DNA from: Aquabacterium sp. A3
GTDB taxonomy: Bacteria; Pseudomonadota; Gammaproteobacteria; Burkholderiales; Burkholderiaceae_C
Direction of reading: 5' to 3'
Assembly: GCF_038069945.1 (NCBI RefSeq)
Contig: NZ_JBBPEV010000002.1
Location: 186,001-250,000, forward strand
DNA length: 64,000 nucleotides
The notes beneath the pieces were generated by a model. The model saw only the letters and a program-made list of their open reading frames with translations, was not told where the DNA came from and ran no database searches. Made by a program: the position numbers and the translations under genes. Positions 8,400-23,454 of this stretch are shown piece after piece; position 1 is the stretch's first letter; every line of letters starts with the position of its first letter.

Positions 8400-9515
8400 T
8401 CAGGCGCGGGGGCCGGGCACCAGGTGGGCCCGGCGGATGTCGCTCAAGGTGCGGCAACCATTGAGGGCCATGGCGATCTCCAGTTCATCACGCAGCAAGC
8501 GGATGACATGGGCCACACCCAAAGCCCCGGCCACGGCCAGGCCGTGCAGGTAGGGCCGCCCGATCAGCACGGCGTGCGCGCCCAGGGCCAGGGCCTTGAA
8601 CACATCGGTGCCACGGCGGATGCCGCCATCGACCAGCACGGGCCAGTCGGGCCCCACCGCGTCGACCACCTGAGGCAGCGCCCAGGCCGTGGAGACGGCC
8701 GTGTCCAGCGTGCGCCCGCCGTGGTTGGACACGATCACGCCGGCCAGCCCCATGGATTGGGCTTGTTGGGCGTCGGCGGGGTGCAGCACGCCCTTGAGCA
8801 GGATGGGCAGGTGGGTGAGGCCTTGCAGCCAGGCGATGTCGTCCCAGGTGGGGGCGTGGCGCAGCAGGCCGTCGAACAGCGCGCTGCCCCCGGGAGGCAG
8901 GGCTTGCGCCTCCGGCATGCGCAAGCCCTGCAGGTTCACGGCGCTCACGCCGGGTGGCGCCGCAGGCCCTGCGCGGCGTTCGCGATCGCGCACGCCGCTG
9001 CAGGGGGCGTCCACCGTCAGCACCAGGGCTTCGTAGCCGGCGGCTTCGATGCGCCGCACGAACTCGGTGTTGAAGCCGCGGTCGTGCTGCAGGTACATCT
9101 GCATCCACAAGGGGCCGCGATCGGCGTCGTTGCGGATGGCCTGGGCCACGCTTTCCAGCGGGGTGCTGGCCTGGGTGCTGAGCACCAGGCCGGCCTGCTG
9201 GGCGCTGGCAGCGCAGGCCACGCCCAGCTCGCCATCGGCGTGCACCGCGCGGTGCAGGGCCACCGGGGCCAGCATCAGGGGGTGGGCCAGGGTGCGGCCC
9301 AGCAATGTGCGCCTGGTGTGGCCGCCAGCCAGGGGCTGCATCACGCGGGGCCACAGCCGCCATTGGGCCCAGGCCTGGGTGTTGGCGCGCACCGTGTGTT
9401 CATCGGCGGCACCGCCGGCCAGCCAGGCCCAGGTGGCGTCGCTGAGGTGCTGCTGAGCCAGCCCTTCGTAATCGGCCAGGCTCACCACACCCGGGGGCAG
9501 GGCGGGCGTGCTCAC
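8400..9515 (-). CDS. FMN-dependent alpha-hydroxy-acid oxidase/dehydrogenase
   Basis: A 371-residue protein of the lactate oxidase/glycolate oxidase family. Visible are [13 protein letters not shown] near the N-terminus, the FMN-binding QMYLQHD, the active-site Lys in LLKGVLHP, the catalytic His in VSNHGGR, and [18 protein letters not shown] binding FMN phosphate. The GTG at 9515 overlaps the stop of the preceding hydroxylase gene as GTGA, which suggests coupling; a GTG four codons upstream is possible. It oxidises a 2-hydroxy acid, probably lactate-like. No membrane-anchoring loop is obvious, so a soluble oxidase is likelier than a respiratory dehydrogenase. Placement after piuC puts it at the end of a Fur-controlled unit. 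Confidence 0.85.
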
Positions 9516-10192
9516 ACCTCGGCCCACATGCGCAGGAGGTTGTGGTACGTGCCCGTCAGGCCCACGGTGATGGGGCTTTCGCCTTGCTGGCGCAGGCGCA
9601 GCAGGTTCATGTCCATGTCAAAAAGCAGGCGGCGTTGTTCATCGCTGCGCACCATGCTTTGCACCCAGAAAAAGCTGCACACCCGCGCGCCCCGCGTGAC
9701 GGGCTCGACCCGGTGCACGCTGGTGCTGGGGTAGACCACCAGGTGGCCGGCGGGCAGCTTCACGCCGCGCGTGCCGTAGGTGTCCTGGATGACGAGTTCA
9801 CCGCCGTCGTAATCGGCCGGGTCGGTGAGGAAGAGGGTGCAGCTCACGTCGGAGCGCACTTTGTCGCCCGCGCGTGTGTTGTGCATCACGGCGCCATCGA
9901 CGTGGTCGCCATAGGTGTTGGTCTCGCCGCGGTAGCGGTTGAACTGCGGCGGAAAGACCTTGTGGGGCAGCGCCGCCGAGAAAAACAGCGCGCTGCGGTT
10001 GAGCGCCTGCAGCACGCGCTCCTGGGCAGCCTGGACGGCGTCGGAGTCGGTGCGCAGTTGTTCGTTTTGTTTGGCGTGGATGGCCTGCCCGCCCGCCGTG
10101 GCCCGCCCATCGCGCCAGACGCCCTGGTCCAGCAGCTCGCGCAGCGCGCGAACCTCTTCAAGGTTCAGAACGTCGGGGATGGTCAGCAGCAT
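9512..10192 (-). CDS. piuC: PKHD-type Fe(II)/2-oxoglutarate hydroxylase (PiuC/YbiX family)
   Basis: A 226-residue dioxygenase of the double-stranded beta-helix fold. The iron triad is visible as H-x-D in GDHVDGAV and the distal His in [10 protein letters not shown]; the nearby Arg (VTRGAR) fits 2-oxoglutarate binding. PiuC homologues typically sit beside TonB-dependent siderophore receptors (piuA, fiu), as here, where the receptor ends 32 bases upstream. Their reaction is unproven; modification of a siderophore or a surface protein has been proposed. It is co-transcribed with the receptor and overlaps the following oxidase by 4 bases. Confidence 0.88.
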
Positions 10193-10224: not shown

Positions 10225-12510
10225 TCAGAACAGCACCTTCATAGTGGCGGTGATGGTGCGGGGAGCGCCCGGGGCGTAGAAGCCGCGGTACAGCGAGTCA
10301 GCATACAAGCGGTTGGTCACGTTGGTGCCATTGAGCTTGATCGACACGCTTTCGCTGTAGGCGTACTCGGCCATCAGGTCGAAGGTGGTGAAGGCGGAGG
10401 CCTCGACCGTGCGGTTGCCCTCGGGGTTTTGCTCGCTGCGGTAGTTCACGCCGCCGCCGATGCGCCACTTGGGCGTGAGCTGGTAGGTGGTCCAGAAGCT
10501 GGCGCTGCGCTTGGGGGTCAGACCAGGGCGGTCGCCCTTGCGTTGGGCGTTGCCGGTGCTCACATTGCTCTCGTCAATCCTGGCCTTCGGGATCCAGGTG
10601 TACGACACGTAGGCCTCCCAACCTGTCGCCAATCGACCCGCAATGTCCACGTCCAGGCCCATGGCGTGGCGCTTGCCCGACAGCAGCTGCTGGTCGGCAG
10701 CAGAGTCTGGATCGGTGTTGCGTTCGTTGTACTTCTCGGTGCGGAAGGCCGACGCACTCACCGACAGCTTGTTGTTGAGCAAGTCGAGCTTGGTGCCCAC
10801 TTCGAAGTTGCGGCTCTTTTCGGCCGGGGTGGCGGCATCCTTCAAGGCATTGGCCGAGTTGGGGTTGGGCGTGTTGGCGTAGGTGTCGCCCGAGGTGTTG
10901 AACGAGCTGCCGCCGGCGACGTGGAACGATGCCCAATCGGTGGGCTGGTAGATGGCGCCCAGGCGGTGGCTGGTCAGCCACTGGATGCGGCTGGTGCGGT
11001 TGCCGGTGGACGTGACGTACTCGCCGTGGAAGCGATCGCGTCGCAGGCCCGCCAGCAGTTTGATCTCGGGCGTGATCTCCATCAGGTTCTGGCCGTACAC
11101 GGCGAAGGAAGACGCATCGAAGGTGTTGTACTGGATGTCGGTGCGGGTGTCGACGATGCTGGCGCCATCGTTGGGCGTGCCCACGGTGGTGGCAGGCCGC
11201 GATGGACCGGCGATGTTGTTGTTGCGCTTGGCGTCTTCCTTGACGTAGTCCACGCCCAGGATGATGTTGTGGCGCAGGCCCAGGGCGTTGAAGGTCTTGC
11301 TGAAGTCGCTTTGTGCGATGAGCACGTCCGTTTCGGCGATGCGGCCTTTGCCCGATCGCGTGATCACGGTGTCGTTGTTCAGGTTGTCGATGGTGGTGCC
11401 GCTGGCAAAGCGGTTCACGGTGGCCCACAACTCACGCTCGAAGCGCCCCTGGCGCACGGTGGTTTTGAGCTCACCCCCGCCTCGCACGCGGTGCGTGTGG
11501 CTGATCGTGGCGTAGGTGGCCGAGCCCTTGTTGTAGTCGCTGGCCAGGCCATAGAAGGCATCGTTGGCCAGTTTGGGCACGATGGTGCCATCCTGGATGA
11601 ACCACGGGTGGTTGTAGATGGGGTTGTTGTCGTACTCCAGGTGGTAGGCGCTCACCATGAACTCGTTGGTCTCACCGATGTTCCACCGGAAGGTGGGGGC
11701 GATGCCGCGCTTGGAGATTTCGATGCCGTCGTTGTCGGCTTCTTGAGCCATCACGTTCAGGCGCAGGGCCGAGCTGTCGCTGGTCTTGAAGTTGAAATCG
11801 CCCGTGGCGCGCACGTTGTCGCCGGTGCCCACCGAGATGTTGGCCTCGTGTTGCGTCATCAAAAACGGCGTCTTGCTGACCTGGTTGACGATGCCACCGG
11901 TGGAGCCCCGGCCGAACAGCATGGATGCCGAGCCCTTGAGCACTTCCACGCGCTCCTGGTTGAAGGTGTCGCGCTCGTACAGCGAGGGGTCGCGCAGGCC
12001 ATCGATGTAGATGTCTCCGGCCTGGCTGAGCGAGAAGCCGCGCAGGCGCACGTCCTCTTCACCGGTTTCGCCGGCCTGGAAGGTCACGCCGGCGGTGGTG
12101 CGCAACAGTTCCTTGAAGTCGTCGAGGTTGCGGTCGTCCATCAGCTTTTCAGTGATCACGGTGATGGACTGGGGGATGTCGCGCAGGGCTTGGTTGCCCT
12201 TGCCGATGCGGGTGGTGACGGCCTGGTAGCTGATTTTGGCTTCGGGGCGCTCGGCCTTGCCCTTGACCGACACGGTGGGCAAGGTGCTTTCGACAGCCTC
12301 TGTGGCCTGGCTCACGGTGGCCACGGGCGGGGCCGCCGCAGGGGCCTCGGGGGCGGTTTGGGCCAGGGCGCTGCCGCTCAGCAGGCTCAGGCCCAGGCCA
12401 GCGGCCAGGGCGCCCAGCGAGCCCAGGCTGGACGCACAGGGCAGGTCGGTGGCGGCGGTGTCGTGGGATGTCGGGCGGATGGCTTGGGCCAGGGTGTGGT
12501 GTGATGACAT
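10225..12510 (-). CDS. TonB-dependent siderophore receptor (Fiu/PiuA type)
   Basis: A 761-residue outer-membrane receptor. The export signal ends at GSALAQT near residue 52, following a long polar N-region. The plug domain (about 95-235) shows IPQSITVITEKLM, ELLRTTAGVT, DIYIDGLRD, RVEVLKGSASMLFGRGSTGG and NQVSK, the hallmarks of siderophore receptors. A 22-strand barrel ends in the terminal aromatic residue (KVLF) needed for BamA recognition. The association with PiuC points to catecholate siderophores, but specificity is not readable from sequence. Control is by the promoter with an overlapping Fur box at 12594-12622. It heads the operon receptor-piuC-hydroxyacid oxidase. Confidence 0.92.
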   Translation of the reverse strand: MSSHHTLAQAIRPTSHDTAATDLPCASSLGSLGALAAGLGLSLLSGSALAQTAPEAPAAAPPVATVSQATEAVESTLPTVSVKGKAERPEAKISYQAVTTRIGKGNQALRDIPQSITVITEKLMDDRNLDDFKELLRTTAGVTFQAGETGEEDVRLRGFSLSQAGDIYIDGLRDPSLYERDTFNQERVEVLKGSASMLFGRGSTGGIVNQVSKTPFLMTQHEANISVGTGDNVRATGDFNFKTSDSSALRLNVMAQEADNDGIEISKRGIAPTFRWNIGETNEFMVSAYHLEYDNNPIYNHPWFIQDGTIVPKLANDAFYGLASDYNKGSATYATISHTHRVRGGGELKTTVRQGRFERELWATVNRFASGTTIDNLNNDTVITRSGKGRIAETDVLIAQSDFSKTFNALGLRHNIILGVDYVKEDAKRNNNIAGPSRPATTVGTPNDGASIVDTRTDIQYNTFDASSFAVYGQNLMEITPEIKLLAGLRRDRFHGEYVTSTGNRTSRIQWLTSHRLGAIYQPTDWASFHVAGGSSFNTSGDTYANTPNPNSANALKDAATPAEKSRNFEVGTKLDLLNNKLSVSASAFRTEKYNERNTDPDSAADQQLLSGKRHAMGLDVDIAGRLATGWEAYVSYTWIPKARIDESNVSTGNAQRKGDRPGLTPKRSASFWTTYQLTPKWRIGGGVNYRSEQNPEGNRTVEASAFTTFDLMAEYAYSESVSIKLNGTNVTNRLYADSLYRGFYAPGAPRTITATMKVLF

Positions 12511-12593
12511 GGTGTCTGAGGCTGGGTGTGGGCGCGCGTGGCAGGCACGGACGCGTCAGGTTCGGGGATGGCGATTGATTCGTGGTGTGGCCA

Positions 12594-12622
12594 ATGATAA
12601 CGATTCGTATTGCGATTGTTAA
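12594..12622 (-). promoter_or_regulatory. Fur-box-containing promoter of the siderophore receptor operon
   Basis: On the minus strand there is a -35 TTAACA (12622-12617), a 17-base spacer and a -10 TATCAT (12599-12594), each 5/6 to the sigma-70 consensus. The plus strand over the spacer and -10 reads GATAACGATTCGT (12596-12608), a Fur-box core shared with three other sites in this window. The predicted leader is about 77 bases. Confidence 0.7.
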
Positions 12623-12664
12623 GCATTGTGTCGCCATGACGCACCACCCAGGCATGGGGTGGGC

Positions 12665-12798
12665 AAAAAAAAGCGTTTGTCGCAACCCCGTCAACCGCTG
12701 GCCCTATCCCCACGATCGGGCCAATGGCGTCCCCACGTTGACATCGACGGCATGGTGTCCGGCGACATCGTCTTGACGGGGTCTGGTGCGACAAACGC
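12665..12798 (-). ncRNA. Candidate Fur-regulated small RNA with paired ends
   Basis: Predicted start is G12798, six bases after the -10 of the promoter at 12805-12833. The first 12 bases (GCGTTTGTCGCA, 12798-12787) are exactly complementary to 12673-12684. After a four-base bulge (12783-12786) another 10 bp (12782-12773 with 12685-12694) pair perfectly. The 22-bp stem encloses about 78 bases with smaller hairpins (TGGCCC/GGGCCA and TGTC-GCCG-GACA) and is followed directly by T8 (12672-12665). Promoter, start, terminal stem and T tract thus fit a roughly 130-nt RNA repressed by Fur. A miniature inverted-repeat element with its own ends is the main alternative. No ORF inside has a ribosome-binding site. 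Confidence 0.55.
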
Positions 12799-12804
12799 GT
12801 AGCT

Positions 12805-12833
12805 ATAGTAACGAGAATGATTCGCAATAGCAA
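12805..12833 (-). promoter_or_regulatory. Fur-box promoter for the candidate small RNA
   Basis: Minus-strand -35 TTGCTA (12833-12828), 17-base spacer, -10 TACTAT (12810-12805). The spacer contains the Fur-box core, read on the plus strand as GAGAATGATTCGC (12813-12825). It lies 45 bases after the feoB stop codon and points away from feoB, toward the paired-end element. Confidence 0.6.
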
Positions 12834-12877
12834 ATCATTTCGATGGGCCTGTCAGCAGCAGGGTTGATCCTGCCGTG

Positions 12878-14779
12878 TCAGCCCCAGCCCAGTGCCCTCG
12901 CCAGCTGATAGGTTGCAAACGAGGCGGCATAGGCCAGCACGAACAGGTAGCCGCCTGCGATCAGGGCCATCGACCAGCCACCCGCCTCGCGCTTGATGGT
13001 GGCCAGGGTGCTCAGGCACATGGGCGCGAACACATACCAGACCATCAGCGACAGGGCCGTGGCCAGGCTCCAGCCATGCTGCAAGATGGGGATGAGGGCG
13101 TCGGTGGCGTCGTCGGTCACGTTGGAGAGCGCGTACACCGTGCCCAGGGCACTGACGGCCACTTCCCGCGCGGCCAGGCCGGGCACCAGCGCGATGCTGA
13201 TCTGCCAGTTGAAGCCGATGGGCTCGAACACCACGGCCAGTGCGCGCCCCAGCATGCCCGCCAGGCTGTGTTCGATGGCCGGCCCCGTGGCGCCCACGGG
13301 CGGCGCCGGGAAGCTGGAGAGGAACCACAGCAGCACGGTCAGCGTGAGGATGATGCCGCCCACGCGCCGCAAAAAGATCTGCACGCGTTGCCACAGGCCC
13401 AGGGCGATGTTGCGCGGGCTGGGCCAGTGGTAGTTGGGCAGCTCCATCATCAGGCTGCGCACCTGGCCTTGGGTGGTGAACTGCTTGAGCACCCAGGCCA
13501 CGGCCATGGCGCCCAGGATGCCCGCCAGGTACAGGCCAAACAGCACGAGGCCTTGCAGTGACAGCCCTCCGGCCACCTCGCGCGCGGGCACGAAGGCGGC
13601 GATCAGCAGGGCGTACACCGGCAGTCGGGCCGAGCAGGTCATGAGCGGCGCGATCATGATGGTGACCAGCCGATCGCGTGGGTTGGCGATGGTGCGCGCG
13701 GCCATGATGCCGGGGATGGCGCAGGCGAAGCTCGACAGCAGCGGGATGAACGATCGGCCTGACAGGCCCACGCTGCCCATGAGGCGGTCCAGCAGGAAGG
13801 CGGCGCGGGGCAGGTAGCCCGATTCTTCCAGCACCAGGATGAAGAAGAACAGGATGACGATTTGAGGCAGGAAGACCAGCACCCCGCCCACCCCTGCGAC
13901 CAGGCCGTCAACCACCAGGCTGTGCAGCCAGCCTTGGGTAGGTAGCCAGGCGCTCACCGTGCTGGCCAGCCAGCCCGTGGCCGCTTCAATCCAGCCCATG
14001 GGGGCCTCGGCCCAAGCAAACACGGCCTGGAACACGAAGAACAGCACCATCGCCAGCAGCATGGGGCCCGCCACCGGGTGCAACACGGCCCGATCGATGC
14101 GGTCACTCATGAGGTGCGGCACGCTGGTGTCCAGCCCCAGGCGCTGCAAAATGCCGCGCACGGCTTCGTGATCGCCCCGGGTGTCGGCTTCGGGGTGTGC
14201 GATCGGGGCCTGGGCCGCACCAGGCTCTGCGGTCCGGCCCCACACCGAGGCGTCGTCCAGCCATTGTTTCAGGGCGTCTGCCCCCTGGGCCTTGACGGCC
14301 ACGGTGCTCACCACGGGCACGCCCAGCTCGCGGCTCAGGGCCGCCGGATCAATTGCCAGGCCTCGGCGCTGCGCCAGGTCCACCATGTTCAGGGCCACCA
14401 TGCAGGGCAGGCCCAGGCGCTTGACGGCCAGCACCAGCCGCAGGTTGCGGCGCAGGTGGGTGGCGTCCACCACGCACACCACCAGGTCGGGGCGTTTTTC
14501 GCCCTGGGCGCGGCCGCGCAGCACGTCCACGGTCACCGACTCGTCCAGCGAACGTGGGTGCAGGCTGTAGGCGCCGGGCAGGTCCAGCAGGCGCAAGGTT
14601 TTGCCAGCCGGGGTGATCAGGCGGCCCTCTTTGCGCTCCACCGTCACGCCGGCGTAGTTGGCCACCTTCTGGTGGCTGCCCGTCAGGCGGTTGAACAGGG
14701 CGGTTTTGCCGCAGTTGGGGTTGCCCACCAGGGCCACCAGTGGGCCGCCACGGTGCACATGAACAACGGCTTCTTTCAT
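12878..14779 (-). CDS. feoB: Ferrous iron transporter FeoB
   Basis: A 633-residue inner-membrane Fe(II) transporter. The N-terminal G domain shows G1 GNPNCGKTALFN near residue 17, G3 DLPGAYS and G4 NMVD. A helical spacer leads to a membrane domain with paired Gate motifs (SFACAIPGIMAART and PLMTCSARLPVYALL), in which the conserved Cys residues line the iron path. It is shorter than E. coli FeoB (773), as is usual for this branch. The ATG at 14779 overlaps the feoA stop as ATGA. There is no feoC. Transcription comes from the Fur-box region ahead of feoA. Confidence 0.95.
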   Translation of the reverse strand: MKEAVVHVHRGGPLVALVGNPNCGKTALFNRLTGSHQKVANYAGVTVERKEGRLITPAGKTLRLLDLPGAYSLHPRSLDESVTVDVLRGRAQGEKRPDLVVCVVDATHLRRNLRLVLAVKRLGLPCMVALNMVDLAQRRGLAIDPAALSRELGVPVVSTVAVKAQGADALKQWLDDASVWGRTAEPGAAQAPIAHPEADTRGDHEAVRGILQRLGLDTSVPHLMSDRIDRAVLHPVAGPMLLAMVLFFVFQAVFAWAEAPMGWIEAATGWLASTVSAWLPTQGWLHSLVVDGLVAGVGGVLVFLPQIVILFFFILVLEESGYLPRAAFLLDRLMGSVGLSGRSFIPLLSSFACAIPGIMAARTIANPRDRLVTIMIAPLMTCSARLPVYALLIAAFVPAREVAGGLSLQGLVLFGLYLAGILGAMAVAWVLKQFTTQGQVRSLMMELPNYHWPSPRNIALGLWQRVQIFLRRVGGIILTLTVLLWFLSSFPAPPVGATGPAIEHSLAGMLGRALAVVFEPIGFNWQISIALVPGLAAREVAVSALGTVYALSNVTDDATDALIPILQHGWSLATALSLMVWYVFAPMCLSTLATIKREAGGWSMALIAGGYLFVLAYAASFATYQLARALGWG

Positions 14780-15054
14780 GCGCGCACCGGTGGCGACACA
14801 GGGGTGACCAGGATGCAGGCGGCCTCGGCTTGGCGCAGGGCAAAGGTGGAGTCGCCCACGCGCACCACCAGCGGGTCTCCGCCCGGCCTGGCGCGGTTCA
14901 TGATTTGCACGCGCTCGCCGGGGATGAAGCCGATTTCTTCCAGCCAGCGAGCCCACTCGGGGCTGTGTGCCGGGGGGGTGACGGCCGCCACGGTGGCCGG
15001 GCAATGGTCGGCGAGATGGCTCAGCGTGGCAACGGCAGGGGCGGTGAGGGGCAT
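14776..15054 (-). CDS. feoA: Ferrous iron transport accessory protein FeoA
   Basis: A 92-residue SH3-like protein of the FeoA family (LEEIGFIPGERVQIMNRA, then GDPLVVRVGDSTFALRQAEA). FeoA is a cytoplasmic partner needed for FeoB activity. The stop overlaps the feoB ATG by 4 bases. The start codon at 15054 lies only 10 bases from a possible -10 (TAAAAT, 15069-15064), so the mRNA leader may be extremely short or absent. Confidence 0.92.
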   Translation of the reverse strand: MPLTAPAVATLSHLADHCPATVAAVTPPAHSPEWARWLEEIGFIPGERVQIMNRARPGGDPLVVRVGDSTFALRQAEAACILVTPVSPPVRA

Positions 15055-15063
15055 GGTGCGCCA

Positions 15064-15085
15064 ATTTTAACGAGAATCATTCTCG
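15064..15085 (-). promoter_or_regulatory. Fur box and -10 element of feoAB
   Basis: CGAGAATCATTCTCG (15071-15085) is a perfect 7-1-7 inverted repeat and the best Fur box in the window. It abuts a minus-strand -10 candidate, TAAAAT (15069-15064). No good -35 is visible. It lies 17 bases upstream of the feoA ATG. Confidence 0.8.
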
Positions 15086-23178: not shown

Positions 23179-23400
23179 TCACCCTCGGGCGTCGGGATTG
23201 CTTGGTGCGGACGGCACGTCCACCACGAAGCGATGCTGCTTGCCGCAGTCCACGATCACCTCTTTCTGGCCGCGCTTGAGCAGGCGCACATCCACCCGCA
23301 TCGAGCCATAACCGTCGTGCCGGATCAGTTCGTCCAGCAGCGTCAGCAGGCGGGCTCTCACGGGGGCCAGGGCAGGGGTGTCCACGACAGGGGCAGGCAT
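23179..23400 (-). CDS. Small conserved-looking protein, first gene of the heme operon
   Basis: A 73-residue cytoplasmic protein: an N-terminal amphipathic helix (RARLLTLLDELIRHDGYG), then strands in MRVDVRLLKRGQKEVIVDCGKQHRFVVDVP. I do not recognise a named family with certainty. Position and the RLLKRGQKEVIVDCGKQHRF pattern recall HemP/HmuP, the small protein that often heads heme operons, but the HemP signature end (LRxTxxGKLILTK) is missing. The start at 23400 follows a Fur-box promoter by about 19 bases and lacks a strong ribosome-binding site. It precedes the PEP-CTERM gene by 121 bases. Confidence 0.7.
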   Translation of the reverse strand: MPAPVVDTPALAPVRARLLTLLDELIRHDGYGSMRVDVRLLKRGQKEVIVDCGKQHRFVVDVPSAPSNPDARG

Positions 23401-23425: not shown

Positions 23426-23454
23426 ATTCTAAATAAGAATTATTCGCAAAACAA
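23426..23454 (-). promoter_or_regulatory. Fur-box promoter of the heme-uptake operon
   Basis: Minus-strand -35 TTGTTT (23454-23449), 17-base spacer, -10 TAGAAT (23431-23426, 5/6). The spacer carries the Fur core, plus strand AAGAATTATTCGC (23435-23447). The surrounding 30 bases are strikingly AT-rich for this genome. Confidence 0.7.

Follow-up and report, generated by a model that had tools for sequence, protein, structure and literature searches.

What is the short minus-strand element that separates feoB from a TonB-dependent receptor gene, with two ends that can pair and a Fur-type promoter beside it? We addressed this question in a stretch of 64,000 nucleotides from Aquabacterium sp. A3 (hereafter the window), for which an initial annotation had proposed a Fur-controlled small RNA. 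We conclude that the locus very probably holds a previously undescribed small RNA gene of Aquabacterium, a genus of freshwater bacteria, which its sequence features suggest is on under iron shortage and has its ends zipped together.

A closed element between feoB and a receptor gene

The initial annotation described five parts in register: a sigma-70 promoter, a Fur box in its spacer, an element starting six bases after the -10, an end-to-end stem of 12 plus 10 bp around 78 bases, and eight T directly after the stem. All are present in the window (Table 1). We take TTGCTA and TACTAT to be the -35 and -10 elements, and PiuC to be the appropriate name for the PKHD-type hydroxylase. Between the two stem segments the 5' side alone has a 4-nt bulge, and both arm pairs enclose the 78-nt interior (12772–12695). 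For the 134-nt strand the predicted folding energy is -70.4 kcal/mol (z = -5.26), and none of 200 dinucleotide shuffles folded as well. The annotation had considered such an arrangement hard to obtain by chance; we agree, because the same arrangement is seen in 16 of the 42 congeneric genomes, counting that of the window.

Table 1. Features of the RNA locus and its neighbours in window coordinates
Feature	Position	Strand	Remarks
Sigma-70-like promoter	12805..12833	-	-35 TTGCTA 12833-12828, 17-bp spacer, -10 TACTAT 12810-12805
Fur box inside promoter spacer	12807..12830	-	Second of 127,954 positions with the receptor-box matrix
Predicted small RNA, ~131-134 nt	12665..12798	-	Putative +1 at G12798, six bases past the -10
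Closing stem P1, 5' arm GCGUUUGUCGCA	12787..12798	-	Double changes in relatives preserve the pairing
Closing stem P1, 3' arm UGCGACAAACGC	12673..12684	-	Pairs 12/12 with 12798-12787
Stem extension P1b, 5' arm, 10 bp	12773..12782	-	Double changes at 3/5 modelled pairs
Stem extension P1b, 3' arm	12685..12694	-	Pairs 10/10 with 12782-12773
Inner hairpin P2, variable	12740..12769	-	Predicted fold; double changes at 3/8 modelled pairs
Motif M1, GUGGGG	12731..12736	-	GUGGGG in 12/16 RNAs, GGGGA-type in the other 4
Inner hairpin P3, M2 in its loop	12695..12727	-	Predicted fold; double changes at 8/14 modelled pairs
Motif M2, GUGGGG, P3 loop	12708..12713	-	In 16/16 RNAs
T8 tract completing an intrinsic terminator	12665..12672	-	T5-T8 in 16/16
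Separate Fur box of the TonB receptor gene	12590..12613	-	Top-scoring of 127,954 positions
TonB-dependent receptor, 761 aa, downstream neighbour	10225..12510	-	Pfam PF00593, PF07715
PKHD-type hydroxylase, PiuC-like	9512..10192	-	Pfam PF18331, PF13640
FeoB, upstream neighbour	12878..15064	-	Pfam PF02421, PF07664; mechanical frame extends further upstream
FeoA, probably 14776-15054	within FeoB frame	-	Named by inspection only

Two versions of the RNA in one genus

The 16 genomes comprise 11 with arms of the window's kind (type A) and five (G007, G458, G455, G013, and G036) whose arms are quite different, reading AUGCGCUGACC or AAGCGUUGACC, and still pair (type B). In the window's genome (3.83 Mb), a single copy was found. 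Comparison by blastn with 60 other genomes (36 of the same genus; E ≤ 0.001) matched nine, seven of them at the RNA locus (G001, G009, G017, G023, G024, G029, and G033). A type-A covariance model (R1) built from eight RNAs was run over the 42 genus genomes and matched 11, adding G457, G027, and G011. Type-B RNAs were sought in the ~800 bases upstream of the receptor gene in 16 of the 22 genomes, out of 42, that have a receptor ortholog (E ≤ 1e-120). A hairpin of at least nine perfect pairs before a T tract was present in seven of these 16 regions (those of the window, G023, and the five type-B genomes), and none was found in the other nine. At the type-B loci, a Fur-box promoter precedes a closed RNA of 141–145 nt with a T7–T8 tail; a type-B model (R2) matched the five known genomes of the 42 and none further. 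Covariance-model searching of related genomes, which the initial annotation had recommended, thus gave 16 of 42 genus genomes with one match each. The RNAs of G027 and G011 are shortened to ~110 nt, with most of P2 missing and the closing stem and M2 retained. Short inner pieces lying off the RNA loci, matched by blastn in G005, G027 (contig C24), and G009 (contig C611), were not counted.

An arm-pattern scan of a collection of 84,980 species returned ten stretches, every one from Aquabacterium, and named carriers are A. parvum B6, A. commune DSM 11901, and A. fontiphilum CS-6. In a 399-genome sample of the family, the exact type-A arm pattern matched only the window's own genome; this pattern is too strict, since it missed G001, G017, and G027, all of which carry the RNA. 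R2 matched 0/399 genomes of that sample, a result that is uninformative because only seven candidates per genome were scored in the rows listed and no type-B genome was among the listed genus members. The exact window arms had no match in viral contigs. The RNA is apparently restricted to the genus, the power of the model searches being weak outside it. It also seems dispensable, as no copy was detected in 26 of the 42 genus genomes, incomplete genomes being among these 26.

The motif pattern GGGGA-GTGGGG-T5 occurred in 22 of 42 genus genomes, namely the 16 carriers and six others (G014, G028, G003, G018, G004, and G008) in which the pairing arm is absent and which were not accepted as RNA copies. 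Extra matches besides the RNA were seen in G033, G001, and G024. A strict motif pattern matched four of the 399 family genomes, three of the genus plus G184, whose match has no arm.

Covariation supports a minus-strand RNA

Across nine pairs in 16 sequences, 97.9% of the cells of the closing stem were paired, with changes on both sides at five of the nine pairs. One stem pair is U-A, U-G, or C-G in different relatives. Covariation reached 0.433, compared with 0.214 ± 0.033 for shuffled (0/500) and 0.028–0.129 for slid alignments; in the shuffle control, two of five measures were not extreme (38/500 and 483/500). The slid control is the stronger of the two; relatedness inflates the shuffle control. 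The feature that the initial annotation called unusual, closure of the whole RNA by its own terminator stem, is supported by this stem being paired across 16 sequences with compensatory changes.

When 41 pairs were followed in the 11 type-A RNAs, double changes were found at 17, against 9.5 after shuffling (0/500) and 1–5 after sliding; here the sequences had been aligned by fitting to the model, and one measure, the count of pair types, did not stand out from the shuffles (97/500). The inner hairpins, like the closing stem, show compensatory changes, well above the slid controls and on most measures above the shuffled ones. The model scored 57–149.5 bits on the minus-strand transcript and at most 24.1 on the opposite strand, and the wobble pairs are consistent with a minus-strand transcript. 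The first 5' bases pair with the last 3' bases before the T tract, the first stem pair being lost in three relatives (G009, G024, and G011). We conclude from these patterns of substitution that the element is very probably a real RNA gene.

The promoter travels with the RNA and contains a Fur box

The sigma-70-like promoter, Fur box included, accompanies the RNA in 16/16 loci. Read from fixed alignment columns, the spacer is 17 in 16/16, and the -35 of G001 may be shifted by one base. Between the -10 and the start of the stem in the alignment lie 6 nt in the 11 type-A loci and 8–9 nt in the five type-B loci; type-B stems begin two bases earlier, so that the stem starts 6–7 nt after the -10 in all 16. 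Given this near-fixed distance, the closing stem presumably forms the first transcribed bases.

Nine receptor boxes, all from congeners in which the RNA is absent, supplied the Fur matrix, which was scanned over 127,954 window positions. The box in the RNA promoter scored 21.9 and ranked second, behind the receptor's own box (33.0). The best Fur scores in the 16 RNA promoters, on either strand, ranged from 10.7 (G023) to 25.7. It is very likely that the putative RNA is under Fur control. The proposal of a Fur-controlled small RNA in an iron locus is supported by covariation, promoter register, Fur box, locus, and poly-T alike.

Other Fur-like sequences were noted along the way. The third-best match in the window (23429–23452, minus strand) lies just upstream of a 73-codon frame (23179–23400, minus strand) with no Pfam match, and a weak match (15060–15083, minus strand; score 2.6) before feoA/feoB is the fourth distinct place. 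At locus L063 (G014), a second Fur-like sequence with a -10-like element lies ~120 bases upstream of the receptor's Fur box; no RNA with paired ends follows it, and it is possibly the remnant promoter of a lost copy.

Gene neighbourhood and alternative readings

The gene order TerC, RNA, TonB receptor, PiuC is largely kept. TerC lies within the fetched stretch in 10/10 type-A relatives, directly adjoining the RNA in six (G011, G017, G027, G029, G033, and G457), on the far side of feoAB in G023 (the same as in the window), and at a greater distance in G001, G009, and G024. Downstream of the RNA, and in the same orientation, comes a receptor ortholog in the window, in seven of the ten type-A relatives (a fragment at a contig end in G009), and in all five type-B genomes. 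In G457 the downstream receptor is a distant one. In G001 and G017 the RNA stands tail to tail with an opposite-strand PiuC-like gene, which itself follows a distant receptor. Among the 11 type-A loci, feoAB adjoins the RNA only in the window and in G023.

The initial annotation had offered the alternative that a miniature inverted-repeat element, its ends GCGTTTGTCGCA, had inserted by a promoter, and the 12-bp terminal repeats are indeed perfect (12/12), while the changed orientation and distant receptor in G001 and G017 could be read as movement. A mobile element would not be expected, however, where the surrounding gene order is largely kept, as the constant presence of TerC illustrates. 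The further copies of the arms that it predicts were not found in the window's genome, each relative gave one model match at a related rather than a dispersed position, there was no plasmid match, and the flanks in the window show no target duplication by eye. The promoter moves with the element in every locus, and the type-B arms pair despite their different sequence; we give this explanation next to no weight. That the stem is simply the feoB terminator near a Fur promoter, with no RNA function, fits the window, where the element follows feoB on the same strand. This reading is very unlikely, given the rarity of feoAB beside the RNA, the 5' arm lying 6–7 nt from its own -10, and a 78-nt interior in which GUGGGG is retained and covariation is likewise seen. 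Were the element instead a cis-acting leader or attenuator acting on the receptor gene, the frequent same-strand receptor ortholog downstream would fit. But a separate Fur box lies between the RNA and the receptor gene in all loci inspected for it (those of the window, G023, and the five type-B genomes), the stem and T tract form a full terminator with no alternative antiterminator pairing by inspection, and a leader is unworkable in G001 and G017 because of the tail-to-tail arrangement there. We regard it as quite improbable.

Two further alternatives concern what the transcript would do. A short coding transcript is suggested by a 25-codon frame in the window's RNA and a frame of the same length, with similar start and end, in its sister G023. 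The middles of these two frames are unlike, being shifted by two small length changes, the frames of G036, G017, and G009 do not resemble the window's, and 11 of the 16 RNAs contain no ATG or GTG frame of at least 12 codons stopping inside the RNA, so coding is extremely unlikely. The RNA might instead bind protein as a sponge, for example titrating a GGA-binding regulator such as CsrA: M1 contains GGGGA in 16/16 RNAs, which we take to resemble a CsrA site loosely. The better conserved loop motif M2, however, has GGA only in the window and G023, and we assign the sponge a low probability. The reading we prefer is that of a Fur-repressed, independently transcribed noncoding RNA of ~131 nt that acts as proposed below; judged from sequence, its probability is roughly 0.8.

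Relation to known RNAs

RyhB, PrrF, and NrrF are iron-responsive small RNAs, repressed by Fur and located in iron loci, and RyhB and PrrF serve iron sparing. To our knowledge, the ends of RyhB and PrrF are not closed by one stem. Fur-controlled small RNAs are thought to arise repeatedly in unrelated lineages. The window and the loci of the 15 relatives gave no Rfam match at the gathering score, and the region 12640–12860 of the window gave none at E ≤ 1; RyhB, PrrF, and NrrF are presumably themselves Rfam families. The analogy to these RNAs drawn by the initial annotation therefore stands for the class and finds no support as homology. No report of this RNA was found in the literature searched, subscription journals lying mostly outside that search, and the accessible part of a study of Bordetella sRNAs (PMC3110155) contains no Fur-controlled sRNA.

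According to the portions of the source available, RyhB and PrrF are Fur-regulated with the control site directly upstream (PMC7377471), an arrangement shared by the Aquabacterium RNA, for which there is no Rfam match. The same portions describe BrrF of Burkholderia cenocepacia, also in the Burkholderiales, as a 126-nt sRNA of low-iron conditions with a link to the TCA cycle; it is released from the hemP transcript by cleavage, has no directly upstream Fur box, and ends in U residues without a stem-loop (PMC7377471). We rejected identity with BrrF, as the Aquabacterium RNA has its own promoter, Fur box, and terminator stem, and its neighbours are FeoB and a TonB receptor. NrrF of the betaproteobacterium Neisseria is a Fur-repressed sRNA with sdhCDAB as a known target; as excerpted, it pairs with petA through ~14 nt, and its suggested contact on the sdh mRNA is between sdhD and sdhA (PMC5586341), whereas the candidate sites of the Aquabacterium RNA flank the sdhC start. 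RusT of Caulobacter is, in the text seen, an iron-responsive sRNA kept among close relatives, bound by Hfq, with four stem-loops and a predicted target-binding segment in a stem-loop, at a locus between lolA and xth (PMC11005374). This locus is unrelated to the one described here, and on that partial description the likeness lies in the iron link, the conservation among close relatives, and the segment borne by a stem-loop. A design with paired ends is known from engineered antisense RNAs, in which, by a secondhand account, flanking inverted repeats pair the ends and are meant to stabilise the RNA in E. coli (Nakashima 2006, cited in PMC3587592). Those constructs are artificial, whereas the Aquabacterium RNA is natural and its closing stem doubles as the terminator. 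As far as we searched, the function class is known, and the sequence family and closed design are new and set apart from BrrF, NrrF, and RusT by the descriptions given of these.

Proposed mode of action

When iron is scarce, Fur would leave the promoter, and transcription would begin at the first base of the closing stem and end on the T tract that directly follows this stem. Both RNA ends would then be sealed together, as in the engineered paired-termini RNAs, which should prolong the life of the RNA and lessen its need for factors that bind RNA ends. Serving as a handle of freely drifting sequence, the stem would display two constant GUGGGG motifs in or near hairpin loops, and these motifs would pair with C-rich CCCCAC sites at translation starts. 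The most likely first target would be sdhCDAB, in line with the iron sparing of NrrF and RyhB, and the RNA may in this way help the cell to save iron. A shifting terminator stem combined with fixed G-rich motifs would be a natural counterpart of the paired-termini silencing RNAs. Since one genus offers 16 genomes with two arm versions and a patchy presence, the origin and turnover of an iron-sparing RNA could be studied directly in Aquabacterium.

The two motifs lie 22–26 nt apart and are constant, whereas the arms vary; the GGGGA-type form of M1 occurs in G009, G024, G027, and G011. M2 is mostly unpaired in the predicted folds, and M1 is partly paired in several. A constant loop motif on a covarying stem gives M2 and P3 the usual look of a seed, and we infer that the GUGGGG motifs are the seed. 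On balance we lean slightly towards an RNA that acts by pairing through GUGGGG.

Candidate sites at sdhC and sodB

We read sdhC in 14 of the 16 RNA-bearing genomes, G009 and G455 being dropped with no Sdh_cyt match. CCCCAC is present in codons 7–9 in 13 of these 14, and also in eight of 17 congeners read without the RNA. For comparison, 20 of the 26 genus members that lack the RNA were taken together with eight genomes of other genera. Within this set, G002 and G005 gave no match, G010 and a second G031 copy were in the wrong frame, and seven of the eight other-genus genes were missed by the start motif; the one read, from G067, has no site and lies outside the tree. In the window's species, a second CCCCAC stands between the Shine-Dalgarno sequence and the AUG, giving two copies around the start codon, a combination found in one of 1598 window tiles and at one of 100 open-frame starts in the window. 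A leader CCCAC at sdhC, scored by script, occurred in nine of 14 genomes with the RNA versus one of 17 without it (G012); reading by eye gave none of the 17, and the script count is the one used.

On the tree, neither the coding nor the leader site was associated with the RNA; a sign test on the three independent pairs that the supported branches allow gave p = 1. The pairing energy of the window motifs with sdhC was unexceptional, 275 of 4000 random 80-nt stretches being as good, and for sodB the figure was 1559 of 4000. Whole-RNA duplexes spanned nearly the full length of both molecules and were uninformative. CCCCAC was present at sodB in only four of 13 RNA-bearing genomes, three of the 16 having no SodB match. 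Because the tree test was not significant, the energies were at background, and sodB was weak, sdhC is treated as a lead only; that it is a direct target is a tentative idea, less likely than not.

The fullest version of the model is a natural paired-termini riboregulator in which the terminator stem seals the ends while two GUGGGG loops grip CCCCAC sites bracketing a start codon, as at sdhC of the window's species, for stable, Hfq-independent, two-point silencing in iron shortage. We consider it speculative and, taken whole, unlikely. The T5–T8 tail is compatible with an Hfq-dependent sRNA.

A further regularity was seen in sdhC itself. Codons 4–8 (AAC GCG AAA ACC CCA; loci L087–L100) do not vary among 13 of the 14 genomes with the RNA, and several genomes without it share them; some other constraint at the RNA level is possible.
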